A stretch of DNA of 64,000 nt from [Pseudomonas] carboxydohydrogena. Lineage in GTDB: Bacteria; Pseudomonadota; Alphaproteobacteria; Rhizobiales; Xanthobacteraceae. The translations under genes were made by a program, and so were the position numbers. The stretch covers positions 2,044,501 to 2,108,500 of the forward strand of contig NZ_CP113162.1 in assembly GCF_029030725.1 (NCBI RefSeq), written 5' to 3'. Of the stretch, positions 58,299 through 64,000 are shown piece by piece. The notes beneath the pieces were generated by a model, which saw nothing but the letters and a program-made list of their open reading frames with translations, did not search any database and was not told the DNA's origin. Position 1 is the stretch's first letter. The number at the start of each line of letters is the position of its first letter.

Positions 58299-58469
58299 CA
58301 CCCGCTCTCTCACGAAAATGCGATATCGTTTGATAAGGCTGCGACAGAAAAACGCAACCGTCGAGGCTTGCCACTATCGTTTAAAGGTGCCGTGGATTTG
58401 CTGCGGCACGGAATCGCTCGTGCGGAAAGCCGCACAATCCTTCATCGCAGAGCGATAGAAATAAAAAAA

Positions 58470-58490
58470 GGCCGGGACTTAGTCCCGGCC
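58470..58490 (-). terminator. hairpin terminator of the oxc-frc unit
   Basis: Nine-base arms GGCCGGGAC and GTCCCGGCC enclose the loop TTA. The plus strand has seven As to the left of the stem, which read as a run of Us after the hairpin on the minus strand. It lies 27 bases after the frc stop. This is the clearest intrinsic terminator in the window. Confidence 0.9.
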
Positions 58491-58517
58491 AGGTCATCCT
58501 CGGGGGAGAGGCTTGAA

Positions 58518-59792
58518 TTACTCAGCGGCGAGCGGAACTTCGCCGAGCGCGCCGGACGAACGGATATCGCCGATCTGGTTTTCGGAGAACTTCAGAACAT
58601 CACGCAGGATTTCGTCGGTGTGTTCACCCAGCAGCGGCGAGCGGACAACATCCGCCGGGCTGTCGGACAGCTTGATCGGATTGCCGACCGAGATGTACTT
58701 GCCACGCACCGGATGATCGACCTCGACGAGAGTGCCGGTCGCATACAGCGACTTGTCCTCGGAAATTTCCTTCATCGACAGGATCGGGCCGCACGGAATA
58801 TCGACCTTGTTGAGGATGTCCATGCACTCGAACTTGGTCTTGGTCATGGTCCACTGTTCGATGCGGCCGAAGATCTCGTTCAGGCGCGGCAGACGGGCGG
58901 CCGGCTTGGCGTAGTTCGGATCGGTCTTCCAGGTGGGCTCGCCGATCACGTCGCAGATCTTCTCCCAGACCGGGGCCTGAGTGATGAAGTAGAGGTAAGC
59001 GTTCGGGTCGGTTTCCCAGCCCTTGCACTTCAGGATGCGGCCGGGCTGGCCGCCACCGGAATCGTTACCAGCGCGCGGGGTGGCTTCGCCGAACGGAATG
59101 CCTTCGCCGAACTGGCTGTATTCCTTGAGCGGACCGTGAGCGAGGCGCTGCTGGTCACGCAGCTTGACGCGGCAAAGGTTGAGCACGCTGTCCTGCATCG
59201 CGACGGTGACGCGCTGGCCCTTGCCCGAGTGGGTACGATGGAACAGAGCGGTGACAATGCCGAGCGCGAGATGCAAGCCGGTGCCGCTGTCGCCGATCTG
59301 GGCGCCGGTCACGAGCGGAAGGCCATCGCGGAAGCCCGTGGTCGAAGCCGAACCGCCGGTGCACTGCGCGACGTTTTCGTAAACCTTGCAATCCTCGAAC
59401 GGGCCGGGACCGAAGCCCTTGATCGAAGCGACGATCAGCTTCGGATTGATCTTCTGGATGTTCTCCCAGGAGAAGCCCATGCGATCGAGCACGCCGGGCG
59501 CGAAGTTCTCGACCATCACGTCGCAGCTCTTCATGAGAGCCGTCAGGACGTCCTTGCCCTTCGGGTTCTTGGCATCGAGGGTGATGGAACGCTTGTTGTG
59601 GTTCAGCATCGTGAAGTACAGGCTGTCCGCGTTCGGAACATCCTGAAGCTGACCGCGGGTAATGTCGCCGGTGCCGGGACGCTCAACCTTGATAACGTCC
59701 GCGCCGAACCACGCGAGAAGCTGAGTGCAAGTCGGTCCTGATTGAACGTGGGTAAAATCGAGAACACGAACTCCGTTGAGCGCCTTCGTCAT
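58518..59792 (-). CDS. frc: formyl-CoA:oxalate CoA-transferase
   Basis: This 424-residue class III CoA-transferase moves CoA from formyl-CoA to oxalate, giving oxalyl-CoA for decarboxylation. The catalytic aspartate is D168 in [12 protein letters not shown], matching D169 of the Oxalobacter enzyme. The N-terminal [20 protein letters not shown] and the long interlocked-ring fold are typical of Frc. It follows oxc in the same transcript; a strong hairpin lies in the 76-base gap between them. Together with oxc and oxlT it forms a complete oxalate pathway. Confidence 0.94.
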
Positions 59793-59868: not shown

Positions 59869-61608
59869 TCATTTCTTCTTCACAACCACGCTCTGCGGGT
59901 TGAGGCTGCCGATGTTGCCGCTCTCGGTACCCGCCGCCGGATCGATCACCGCGTTGATGAGGGTCGGCTTGCCGGAGTCCATCGCGGCGGAAACAGCGCG
60001 CTTGAGTTCATCCGGCGTCGTGACGTGAACGCCGACACCGCCGAACGCTTCCATCATCTTGTCGTAGCGGGCGTCCTTCACGAACACCATCGGCGCGACA
60101 TCCGCCCCGCCCGTCGGATTGACGTCGGTGCCGCGATAGATGCCGTTGTTGTTGAAGATCACGACGCAGACCGGCAGGTTGTAACGGCAGATCGTCTCCA
60201 CCTCCATGCCGGAGAAACCGAAGGCGCTGTCGCCCTCGACAGCCAGAACCGGCTTGCCGGTCTCGACCGCGGCCGCCACGGCGAAGCCCATGCCGATGCC
60301 CATGACACCCCAGGTACCGACATCGAGACGCTTGCGCGGCTGATACATGTCGATGATGCCGCGCGCGAGGTCGAGCGTGTTGGCGCCTTCGTTGACCAGG
60401 ATCGCATCCGGCCGCGCCTTGATGATATCGCGCAACGCGCCGAGCGCGCTGTGGTAGTTCATCGGCGAAGCGTTGTTCATCAGCTTCGGAGCCATCTTGG
60501 CGATGTTGGCTTCCTTCTTGGCGTTGACGGCGCCGGTCCAGTCGGACGGTGCTTTTGCCCACTTGCTGTCCATACCGCCGAGCAGCGCGGACACGCAGGA
60601 GCCGATGTCGCCGACGAGCGGCGCAACGATCTCGACGTTCGAGTCCATTTCCTTCGGCTCGATGTCGATCTGGATGAACTTCTTCGGCTCGGAGCCCCAG
60701 CTCTTGCCCTTGCCGTGCGACAGCAGCCAGTTGAGCCGCGCGCCGATCAGCATGACGACGTCTGAGTCCTTGAGCACGGTCGAGCGCGCAGCGCCCGCCG
60801 ACTGCGGATGCGTATCCGGCAGAATGCCCTTCGCCATCGACATCGGCAGGAACGGAATGCCGGTCTTCTCGATCAGCTCACGGATCTTGTCGTCAACCTG
60901 GGCGTAGGAAGCACCCTTGCCCAGAATAATAAGAGGACGCTTGGCGCTCTTGAGAACATCGAGCGCGCGCTTGACGGCGGACGGCGCGGGAATCTGCTCC
61001 GGCGCGGCGTCGATCACCTTGACGAGCGACTTGTTGCCCTCTTCCGCGGTCATGACCTGCGAGAAGAACTTCGCCGGCAGGTCGAGATAGACGCCGCCGG
61101 GACGGCCAGAGCATGCGGCGCGGATCGCGCGGGCGATGCCGATGCCGACATCCTGCGCGTGAAGCACGCGGAAGGCCGCCTTGCAGAGCGGCTTGGCGAT
61201 CGCGAGCTGATCCATTTCCTCGTAGTCGCCCTGCTGCAAATCGACGATCTCGCGCTCGGACGAGCCGGAGATCAGGATCATCGGGAAGCAGTTGGTGGTG
61301 GCGTTGGCCAGCGCGGTCAGACCGTTGAGGAAGCCGGGAGCCGAAACGGTGAGGCAGATGCCGGGCTTCTTGGTCAGATATCCGGCGATCGCGGCGGCGT
61401 TGCCGGCGTTCTGCTCGTGGCGGAACGAGATGACACGGATGCCTTCGCCCTGCGCCATGCGGCAGAGGTCCGAAATCGGAATCCCCGGCACTGCATAAAT
61501 CGTGTTGATATCGTTCAGCTTGAGCGCGTCGATGACGAGATGGAAACCATCCGTCAATTCCTGCTCCGCCGCGTTGGCATCAATGTTTGCTACTGCTGCT
61601 ACTGACAT
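59869..61608 (-). CDS. oxc: oxalyl-CoA decarboxylase
   Basis: This 579-residue thiamine-diphosphate enzyme decarboxylates oxalyl-CoA to formyl-CoA and CO2. The cofactor-activating glutamate is E65 in [11 protein letters not shown], and the metal/ThDP site is [17 protein letters not shown] followed by NNNGIYRG. The sequence follows the Oxalobacter enzyme type over its whole length. It is the first gene of the oxc-frc unit and is divergent from oxlT across a 658-base gap holding two copies of a 19-bp box. Confidence 0.94.
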
Positions 61609-61916
61609 CAGTACCCTCCCAGGGTTTATTCCGCTTCACGCGGTTTTTGATCGAGGTGACTAGCTCGCGAGGACCGAGCCGTTTGCGTGTTGATGGATCG
61701 TCGTACGTAAAATCATGGCTCAAAGATGAGGTTTTACATCCGCTGTAGACCTATCCAGCCCGTGAACGTGTGGTCGGCTGCCATGGACCGCAACCAATCG
61801 TCACTGCCGAAGCGGTGAAGATATTGGCCGAGGCAGGCGGACTCCACTGATCGCCACAACCAGATTGCATCCGACAGACCGCATATGAAATGCGCCATCG
61901 TTGCTGGGAAAATTCA

Positions 61917-61935
61917 TTGGCATACTAAATACCAA
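61917..61935. promoter_or_regulatory. oxalate-locus box 1, TTGGCATACTAAATACCAA
   Basis: This 19-bp sequence has outer arms TTGG/CCAA with inner CATA/ATA parts, partly palindromic. It lies 309 bases before the oxc start and matches box 2 at 16 of 19 positions. The TTGG...CCAA form resembles operators of GntR/FadR-type regulators, but a LysR-type site cannot be excluded. Confidence 0.6.
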
Positions 61936-62199
61936 CTGTCAACGAGGAAGCGCCACCGCACCCTTCCCTCGCGACAGGCCAAATGTCGCGCGGCAAACAC
62001 GCCTTCCGACACTCTAAGACATGCAGGCCATTCCGTGATGCGGAATCCGCCAAAGCCGTGTCACCAAGCCTCAGAAAGGATCGGAAAAATTTCTTCTTTA
62101 ATTATAGCGTGTAACGCAGACGTCCTTGTCCAAATCTTGAGTTCGCATCTGCGAAAAGGGCGAACAACCAGGCAGTTTTGAACACGACCCTCTTGCCTA

Positions 62200-62218
62200 T
62201 TGGCATATCATATACCAA
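62200..62218. promoter_or_regulatory. oxalate-locus box 2, TTGGCATATCATATACCAA
   Basis: This 19-bp near-palindrome pairs at eight of nine arm positions around a central C. It ends 48 bases before the oxlT start, a typical operator or activator position. It agrees with box 1 at 16 of 19 positions, and its reverse complement TTGGTATATGATATGCCAA resembles the two boxes near 63650. Confidence 0.65.
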
Positions 62219-62266
62219 AATCACCCCACGCACTTCGACTAAAGAAGGTGCTTTGGGAGGAATGTT

Positions 62267-63571
62267 ATGACGGTATCGGCAGGAAATGACGCCACCCGTG
62301 TCAGTGACGGCTATCGCTGGACTCAGCTAGCGATCGGCGTCGGCTGCATGGTGATGATCGCAAATCTTCAATACGGATGGACGTTCTTCGTCCCCGACAT
62401 CCAAAAGCAGTTCGGCTGGGATCGCGCATCGATCCAGTGGGCTTTCACCCTTTTCGTCCTTTTCGAAACCTGGCTCGTGCCGGTTGAAGGCTGGATCGTC
62501 GATAAATACGGCCCGCGCCTCGTCATCATGATGGGCGGCGCCTTCTGCGCCATCGGCTGGGTTATCAATGCTTACGCAACATCGCTGACCGGCTTCTACG
62601 TCGGACAGATCATCGCTGGCGTTGGCGCCGGCGCCGTGTACGGCACCTGCGTCGGTAACGCGCTGAAGTGGTTTCCGGACAAGCGCGGCCTTTGCGCGGG
62701 CATCACCGCTGCGGGCTTCGGTGCAGGCTCCGCATTCACCGTTGCTCCGATCCAGGCCATGATCAGGGATTCCGGCTTCCAGGCCGCCTTCTTCAACTTC
62801 GGCATCGGCCAGGGCGTGATCTGCATGATCCTGGCGATCTTCATCATCGCGCCGAAACCCGGCCAGACGCCGCAGCCTGTGGTGAACACCAACATCCAGC
62901 AGACCCGCCGCGACTATGGTCCGAGCGAAGTCGCCAAGACCGGCGTGTTCTGGCTGATGTATTTCATGTTCGTCATCGTCGGCGCAGGCGGCCTGCTCGT
63001 CACCGCCAACCTGAAGCCCATCGCGGCCGACTGGAATATCGCCAACTCTCCGGTCACGATCGCGGGTCTTACGATGACTGCGGTGACCTTCGCCGCGACC
63101 ATCGACCGTGTCCTGAACGGCCTCACCCGTCCCTTCTTCGGCTGGATCTCCGACAAGATCGGCCGCGAGAGCACCATGTTCATCGCATTCGGTCTGGAAG
63201 GCATCGGCATCGCGGCGCTCTATTTGTGGGGCCACGATCCGCTGTGGTTCGTGATCCTCACCGGCTCGGTGTTCTTTGCCTGGGGCGAGATCTACAGCCT
63301 GTTCCCGGCGGCTTGCACCGACACGTTCGGCTCGAAGTTCGCGACCACCAACGCAGGCATGCTTTACACCGCGAAAGGCTTTGCCGCGCTTCTGGTCCCG
63401 TTCGGCAATTACATGCAGCAGTCCACGGGTAGCTGGGACGGTGTCTTCCTGCTTGCTGCGGGTGCGAACATCCTTGCGGCCCTGCTCGCTGTCTTCGTGT
63501 TGAAGCCCTGGCGGAAGTCTGTTGTTATGAACAGCCAGCTTCCAAACGCCGCAGGTCAGTTAGCCGCTTAA
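62267..63571 (+). CDS. oxlT: oxalate/formate antiporter (OFA family MFS)
   Basis: This 434-residue transporter of the major facilitator OFA family has twelve transmembrane segments. It exchanges external oxalate for internal formate and so feeds the Frc-Oxc cycle. The two charged residues that bind the dicarboxylate in Oxalobacter OxlT (arginine 272 and lysine 355) appear to correspond to R288 in LNGLTRPFFGW and K370 in MLYTAKGFAALL, with nearly the same spacing. A ribosome site GGAGG precedes the ATG. A hairpin terminator follows. Confidence 0.92.
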   Translation: MTVSAGNDATRVSDGYRWTQLAIGVGCMVMIANLQYGWTFFVPDIQKQFGWDRASIQWAFTLFVLFETWLVPVEGWIVDKYGPRLVIMMGGAFCAIGWVINAYATSLTGFYVGQIIAGVGAGAVYGTCVGNALKWFPDKRGLCAGITAAGFGAGSAFTVAPIQAMIRDSGFQAAFFNFGIGQGVICMILAIFIIAPKPGQTPQPVVNTNIQQTRRDYGPSEVAKTGVFWLMYFMFVIVGAGGLLVTANLKPIAADWNIANSPVTIAGLTMTAVTFAATIDRVLNGLTRPFFGWISDKIGRESTMFIAFGLEGIGIAALYLWGHDPLWFVILTGSVFFAWGEIYSLFPAACTDTFGSKFATTNAGMLYTAKGFAALLVPFGNYMQQSTGSWDGVFLLAAGANILAALLAVFVLKPWRKSVVMNSQLPNAAGQLAA

Positions 63572-63643: not shown

Positions 63644-63662
63644 CTAATATCTGGTATGCCAC
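63644..63662. promoter_or_regulatory. oxalate-type box 3, CTAATATCTGGTATGCCAC
   Basis: This 19-bp sequence matches the reverse complement of box 1 (TTGGTATTTAGTATGCCAA) at 13 of 19 positions. It is one of two tandem copies; the second begins 21 bases downstream, two turns of the helix away. It lies 233 bases before the start of the edge gene. Confidence 0.45.
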
Positions 63663-63664
63663 GC

Positions 63665-63683
63665 CTGATATTTGGAATGCCAA
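63665..63683. promoter_or_regulatory. oxalate-type box 4, CTGATATTTGGAATGCCAA
   Basis: This 19-bp sequence matches the reverse complement of box 1 at 15 of 19 positions and box 3 at 15 of 19. It has the same orientation as box 3 with a 21-base offset, so two regulator dimers could bind on the same face of the DNA. Confidence 0.5.
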
Positions 63684-63895: not shown

Positions 63896-64000
63896 ATGGC
63901 AATCGACAAAGCATCCGTCCGCAAGGTTCTTGACAAGGTCAAGGCCGACGGCCGCAACAGCTTGACTGCGCCGGAAGGCAAACTGGTTTGTGACGCCTAT
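63896..64000 (+). CDS. acyl-CoA ligase-like protein, N-terminus only (cut by window edge)
   Basis: Only the first 35 residues are in the window (MAIDKASVRKVLDKVKADGR and on). The pattern of a helix followed by SLTAPEGKLVCDAY recalls the start of the ATP-grasp domain of NDP-forming acyl-CoA ligases, where the next residues are usually a GIPVP loop. Its place beside oxc, frc and oxlT, and the related boxes upstream, suggest a part in CoA activation of oxalate or formate. The family call rests on a short stretch and on context. Confidence 0.55.
   Translation, partial: MAIDKASVRKVLDKVKADGRNSLTAPEGKLVCDAY

Follow-up and report, generated by a model that had tools for sequence, protein, structure and literature searches.

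Background

FadR, LldR, PdhR, UxuR and GlcC combine a GntR winged helix-turn-helix with an FCD domain and recognise half-sites of the TKGT/ACMA type, and the regulator and boxes described here are like them in both respects (PMC4494728, of which a part was accessible to us). According to that part of PMC4494728, the GT and the AC of FadR-subfamily operators normally stand 2-3 nt apart, in some groups further half-sites lie 7-12 nt away from the centre, and NanR and BioR are subfamily members that also depart from the spacing norm. Two further proteins bear on the mode of action: CitO, of the FCD family, senses citrate through a metal, and with both of them it binds to DNA and acts as an activator (PMC4746285, accessible part), and GlcR of Paracoccus denitrificans is a GntR-family, glycolate-responsive repressor at glcDEF (PMC11323563, likewise in part).

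We call "the window" the whole stretch of 64,000 nucleotides analysed here, which carries genes for the use of oxalate. Oxalate is a major plant acid on which oxalotrophs feed in soil and gut, and their pathway leads from oxalate to oxalyl-CoA, formyl-CoA, formate and CO2, together with a conversion of glyoxylate to glycerate. The literature that we searched, with few subscription papers within reach, gave no named transcriptional regulator of oxc-frc, and a search for regulator terms in the accessible parts of PMC10192776 and PMC12927642 gave no named oxalate regulator. We think it quite probable that the boxes described below are operators bound by the GntR/FCD regulator of a neighbouring acl-sucC-sucD-gntR cluster, and that they mark out an oxalate regulon under a repressor whose effector is a metabolite of the pathway.

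Two boxes between divergent oxalate genes

The features needed for the argument are listed here by window position.

58518..59792, minus strand: frc, formyl-CoA transferase (TIGR03253, 723.8 bits, cut-off 504.2)
59869..61608, minus strand: oxc, oxalyl-CoA decarboxylase (TIGR03254, 1023 bits, cut-off 739.4)
61917..61935: box B1, TTGGCATACTAAATACCAA, minus-strand reading TTGGTATTTAGTATGCCAA; candidate operator of the oxc-frc promoter
61937..61942, minus strand: -35-like TTGACA, 1 nt before B1 on the oxc strand, in 6/6 genomes
62193..62198, plus strand: -35-like TTGCCT, 1 nt before B2 on the oxlT strand, with 4/6 letters of TTGACA
62200..62218, plus strand: box B2, TTGGCATATCATATACCAA; candidate operator of oxlT
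62267..63571, plus strand: oxlT, oxalate/formate antiporter (TIGR04259, 635.3 bits, cut-off 335)
63644..63662, minus strand: box B4, degenerate candidate operator copy, 3 mismatches to the palindrome
63665..63683, minus strand: box B3, candidate operator copy, 1 mismatch to the palindrome, 212 bp before the acl ATG
63896..64000, plus strand: 5' end of acl, a 710-aa ADP-forming acyl-CoA synthetase-like protein, running past the window edge
68269-69021 if the window were continued (genome C1:2112769-2113521): GntR/FCD regulator gene, 250 aa, last of acl-sucC-sucD-gntR

The earlier note on this DNA had proposed two boxes between divergent oxalate genes, and a check of the sequence bears it out: the coordinates hold, B1 and B2 are 283 bases apart and identical at 16/19 positions, and protein-family profiles place oxc and frc on the minus strand and oxlT on the plus strand. 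The distance that it gave between B2 and oxlT also agrees with the 48 bases from the end of B2 to the ATG; from the start of B1 to the oxc ATG there are 308. The form common to the boxes is a 19-bp palindrome, TTGGNAT-N5-ATNCCAA, and both match YTGGNATN5ATNCCAR perfectly in the genome pattern search. They make up the sole direct-repeat family reported for 61600-62300 (20 nt, spacing 283, 85%). Searched at up to 3 mismatches, TTGGYATANNNNATACCAA has 5 matches at three places in the window (both palindromic boxes scoring on each strand) against a mean of 0.42, a number reached by 0/100 shuffles.

Both boxes persist in the genus. When six genomes are aligned, B2 has the same 19 bases in all six, 46-49 bp from oxlT, and B1 is kept in all six (in one of them with 1 mismatch), 290-324 bp from oxc. 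The gap as a whole is mostly diverged among these genomes; B1, B2 and the adjoining -35-like elements are retained, and the other conserved blocks are the ribosome-binding sites and a few more. If B1 marks the oxc promoter, the oxc leader would be ~280 nt long (61609-61916, minus strand). A GC-rich hairpin lies directly before the oxc ribosome-binding site and, by eye, can be followed through the aligned relatives, where its letters differ.

The earlier note had also counted four boxes. We take the other two to be B3 and B4, which are present but weaker, with 1 and 3 mismatches, respectively. B4 retains the inner CTGGTATGCCAC and stands in tandem with B3 at 21 bp; in the relatives G157 and G165, B3 is kept at 216 bp and B4 is recognisable, and in the relatives G152, G139 and G106 no box was found before acl. 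At the end of frc (58464-58530, minus strand) there is a sub-gathering Rfam match to the small RNA SorX (28.5 bits against a gathering score of 46.6, E 0.0008), the sole Rfam match found.

A GntR/FCD regulator past the right edge

It was right to say, as the earlier note did, that the window holds no regulator gene for this locus. The regulator that it had supposed to be encoded elsewhere is, on the other hand, encoded locally, where it had suggested looking for a GntR gene: beyond the right edge the gene order is acl, sucC, sucD and then, ~4.3 kb past the edge, a gene with both GntR and FCD domains. Judging from strand and spacing, these four genes probably form one operon. The protein has an N-terminal GntR winged helix (PF00392, 49.5 bits, cut-off 27) and a C-terminal FCD domain (PF07729, 83.2 bits, cut-off 24.3), and is one of five FCD matches in this genome. 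None of the named NCBIfam GntR equivalogs (phnR, LldR, GlcC, PdhR and others) scores over its cut-off, the best being phnR_burk with 98.4 bits against 271.5. The nearest organism-named homologue among the matches listed, that of Afipia carboxidovorans, is 95% identical. Our best reading of this protein is that of an uncharacterised GntR/FCD regulator of the oxalate pathway.

A structure model of the homologue L066 (mean pLDDT 83) matches FCD regulators. Among its top matches are the structures 7u5q, 7xp1, 6za3 and 3sxy (TM0439, PmiR, Atu1419 VanR), which show 23-29% identity and have other ligands and targets. The histidines H173, H217 and H239 (L066 numbering) are invariant in 40/40 regulators, an alignment of 40 non-redundant stop-free GntR stretches from L049-L128, and align with histidines of 7xp0. 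Such a metal-binding triad is common but not universal among FCD proteins and, to judge by the aligned residues, appears to be present in the family of our regulator.

In a quickly made tree, many branches of which are weak (GntR matches of <150 residues left out, three duplicates dropped), the regulator groups with sucCD-linked Bosea and oxc-linked Bradyrhizobium proteins, and the oxc-linked Bosea copies fall in a separate clade. Three Bosea loci (L074, L085, L086) have two paralogous regulators each, one before oxc and one after sucD.

GlcR, which we compare by description, resembles what we propose here in being an alphaproteobacterial GntR-family protein that regulates a neighbouring two-carbon-acid pathway and binds DNA less well in the presence of its substrate (PMC11323563, accessible part). 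It differs in its target, glcDEF, and its effector, glycolate, whereas the regulator here is linked to oxc-frc, acl and sucCD. The adjacency to glcDEF that goes with the GlcR group is not seen for our gene, whose neighbours are sucD and a FAH-family gene.

Perfect and imperfect sites in the genome

The earlier note had reasoned that a box found at many unrelated places would speak against its reading. In the whole 3.27 Mb genome, YTGGNATNNNNNATNCCAR has four perfect places, B1 and B2 among them, and all four are upstream of oxalate or glyoxylate genes; the number expected by chance is 0.38 under an order-3 Markov model, for which 198 kb of the same genome served as training sequence. The third place is 30 bp before the glyoxylate carboligase gene gcl (TIGR01504, 1165.3 bits), and the fourth precedes, by 58 bp, another oxlT-like gene that appears to be shortened. 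This second gene (L131:3050-4018, minus strand) has only 323 codons and its similarity to OxlT ends after ~220 residues, for which reason it may be broken or fused; in G157, the oxlT-like match found at a comparable site is nearly full length.

With up to one mismatch to the palindrome there are 23 places, against 13.4 expected from the Markov model (the reversed pattern gives 3), so that one-mismatch places, which are mostly chance, need other support. There are 19 of them. One is B3, and the surroundings of 9 of the other 18 were read: some are inside open frames, one is before a sensor-kinase gene and one is between mdh and sucA. After this reading we treat the one-mismatch places other than B3 as chance or undecided rather than as operators. 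The one at C1:668609 (L010:8610) is 129 bp before the sensor-kinase-like gene, which is followed by a sigma-54-type response regulator; it may be there by chance.

The box follows the regulator across relatives

From at least 590 confirmed matches we kept the 80 best named loci around oxc, which span Bradyrhizobium, Afipia, Tardiphaga, Bosea, Methylobacterium, Azospirillum and others; the counts across these loci are not independent, because many of them are close relatives. A gntR homologue is directly upstream of oxc in 71/80. In 65/80 the palindrome, with at most one mismatch, occurs no more than 400 bp upstream of gntR or, in the other loci, of oxc. Three of the 15 loci without such a site have a shortened upstream stretch (short stretches kept among the 80 are those of L075 with 23 bp, L128 with 96 and L091 with 220). 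The same arms with spacers of 0-4 or 6-8, and the reversed pattern, are found in 0/80 of these loci, spacers of 9-12 in 1 to 4, and a spacer of 13 in 35.

The possibility that the boxes are chance matches, or a DNA repeat without regulatory role, can be weighed. One-mismatch sites are indeed common, as the expectation of 13.4 says, but the four perfect sites all stand before pathway genes, the boxes are conserved inside a diverged gap and the 5-base spacer is preferred; we give this explanation next to no credence.

The linkage extends beyond these loci. Across 21 genus genomes the pattern has 82 perfect places and its reversal 4, and in 149 family genomes a stricter pattern gives 103 sites in 51 genomes, again against 4 reversed. 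The reversed pattern is a lenient control, since AT is commoner than TA. Of the 103 sites, 65 precede a gntR homologue by at most 400 bp. A stricter-pattern site is present in 37/39 family genomes with the strongest regulator homologues (E <= 1e-80), in 11/82 with weaker homologues, whose sites the pattern may miss, and in 3/28 without a homologue. At E <= 1e-45, a homologue is found in 13/249 genomes drawn from the phylum, all of the same order or nearer.

One could imagine that the boxes belong instead to an IclR-type, glyoxylate-sensing BhcR homologue beside gcl, or to another co-occurring regulator. The gene beside gcl does score as BhcR (372.1 bits, cut-off 350), and the gcl-bhcR gap has a perfect box in this genome and in G157, G165, G106 and G154, in the latter four 23-29 bp before gcl. 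However, in the best 80 named loci the box is mostly upstream of gntR itself, where autoregulators often have a site, and the sites follow the presence of gntR across genomes (the loci being scored for gntR), and we regard an owner other than the GntR/FCD protein as very unlikely.

Promoter geometry and mode of action

No promoter was found in the oxc-oxlT gap by E. coli rules, hence no -10 was recognised. Beside B2, CTCTTGCCTA is present in 5/6 aligned genomes and CGCTTGCGCA in the sixth, with CTTGC in all six. The 252 distinct sites, many of them in genomes that are related to one another, have 504 flanks. In 35 of these flanks a hexamer with at least 5/6 letters of TTGACA ends 1 nt ahead of the box, and in 57 it ends 2 nt ahead; further -35 peaks, of 25, 12, 14 and 11, are seen at offsets 9, 10, 21 and 25. 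The operator starts 1-2 nt after the -35 and would fill the spacer, and for this reason the regulator is most likely a repressor.

The absence of a recognisable -10 from the gap might also be taken as a sign of an activator, with the same operator and the same regulator, that needs its ligand; some activator-dependent promoters likewise have no recognisable -10. CitO provides the precedent within the FCD family, activating with citrate and metal (PMC4746285, accessible part). According to the same part of PMC4746285, however, the stretches that CitO protects, -41 to -65 and -51 to -74, are both on the upstream side of the -35, whereas the box here is just downstream of a -35-like hexamer. GlcR, the analogue from glycolate metabolism, is moreover a repressor (PMC11323563, accessible part). 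We consider activation improbable on this evidence.

In the mechanism that we prefer, that of repression, the GntR/FCD protein would bind the 19-bp palindromes before the oxalate genes and, when bound, would occupy the spacer between -35 and -10 and block RNA polymerase. A metabolite of the pathway, most likely oxalate at the FCD metal site, would then release it, and uptake, activation, decarboxylation and assimilation of oxalate would be placed in one regulon. We observe the sites and their conservation, the place and family of the regulator, its invariant histidines and the -35 geometry, and infer the binding, the repression and the effector; oxalate, a bidentate metal ligand, would be the preferred effector.

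A wide palindrome

The earlier note had likened the boxes to GntR/FadR-type operators. The GntR/FCD gene nearby agrees with this, but the 19-bp palindrome is wide and departs from the usual FadR-subfamily spacing: the norm is GT-N2/3-AC, and the conserved pair here is GT-N9-AC. NanR, an FCD regulator, has TGGTATA half-sites like those of the boxes, but these (TGGTATAW) are direct repeats, whereas the boxes are an inverted repeat (PMC4494728, accessible part).

The sites are of two classes. With at most one mismatch, the inner YTGGNATNCCAR, a 12-mer close to the canonical type, is present in 91/96 of the sites that precede acl, gntR clade II or oxc (many shared acl-gntR gaps being counted for both genes), in 3/48 sites before oxlT, the oxlT paralogue and gntR clade I, and in 1/3 sucC sites, which are outside the 96 and the 48. 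The common denominator of both classes is the wide palindrome. The acl/gntR clade II/oxc class could be read as a core with an additional half-site; the oxlT/paralogue/gntR clade I class is not readable in this way.

Further candidate targets in relatives

We picked by hand 20 regions from partly listed genus sites, perfect or with one mismatch, and 8 recurrent-looking sites from 38 without gntR assignment. A sucC/mtkA-like gene has a site 96-154 bp upstream in G106, G154 and G152, and sucC behind mdh has one in G156 (48 bp), G024 and G122. Paralogues of oxlT are also preceded by sites in relatives, and in G152 a site ends at the first possible start codon of a glycerate-2-kinase-like gene (181 bits, under cut-off). 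In L171 the site is before a CoA-transferase-like frame, a doubtful target.

A NuoF-like gene recurs next to sites (L174, L179, L183). In L174, the next frame has Fer2_4, molybdopterin oxidoreductase Fe4S4 and partial formate dehydrogenase alpha matches, and because of these domains together with the NuoF-like gene we read the pair as a putative NAD-linked formate dehydrogenase, fdsBA-like. Twelve loci, namely the 8 picked sites and 4 perfect B. barranii sites, include 7 before an fdsB-like gene, 2 before sucC, 1 before an oxlT paralogue, 1 at gntR/acl and 1 (L208) without an assigned gene; 1/4 of the perfect B. barranii sites is without an assigned gene, and so are L170, L173 and L177 in relatives. 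In this genome, the stretches searched at the nearest FdsB-like (43%) and mtkA-like genes have no site under 3 mismatches.

Proteomics of arabinose-grown B. diazoefficiens offers an outside comparison: Frc, Gcl, Hyi and tartronate semialdehyde reductase were higher there or seen only there, Oxc was raised in one of two fractions (in the second not significantly), and a NuoF-like protein was likewise more abundant or exclusive (PMC5996035, accessible part). This protein, blr2316, is like fdsB by description only. The boxed gene set, for its part, fits the pathway from oxalate to CO2 and from glyoxylate to glycerate.

A wider reading suggests itself, which we put forward tentatively and would sooner doubt than assert: that one regulator-operator pair might coordinate all of aerobic oxalate metabolism, in the family to which this genome belongs and in related orders, through a new wide operator, GT-N9-AC, with oxalate sensed via the FCD metal centre. 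It would span import by oxlT, activation by acl and sucCD, decarboxylation by frc-oxc, oxidation of the resulting formate by the fds-like genes, assimilation of glyoxylate through gcl and glycerate kinase, and even the succinyl-CoA synthetase of the citric acid cycle. In any case, a concrete protein, an operator and a list of targets make oxalate control testable in Afipia and Bradyrhizobium, and they lead one to expect that formate dehydrogenase and succinyl-CoA synthetase are controlled together with oxalate use. The regulator/operator pair might serve as an oxalate biosensor, and its geometry, at variance with the FadR-subfamily rule, is added to those described.

The mdh-sucA region

The one-mismatch box between mdh and sucA is at C1:3170405 (L136:3406; L211). 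Among 20 genus members in which mdh was found, sucA follows mdh without sucCD in 7, namely this genome and the relatives L212-L216 and L218, 12 have sucC behind mdh and 1 is cut off. The box is kept 161-163 bp before sucA in 5 of the 7, but we do not accept it as an operator, because its flanks are conserved as well (the G154 row was left out of the flank comparison). The sole close sucC of this genome is the copy in the oxalate operon, the two others being only 36-37% identical; here and in G106, sucCD is absent from the mdh-sucA interval and is placed inside the oxalate operon.
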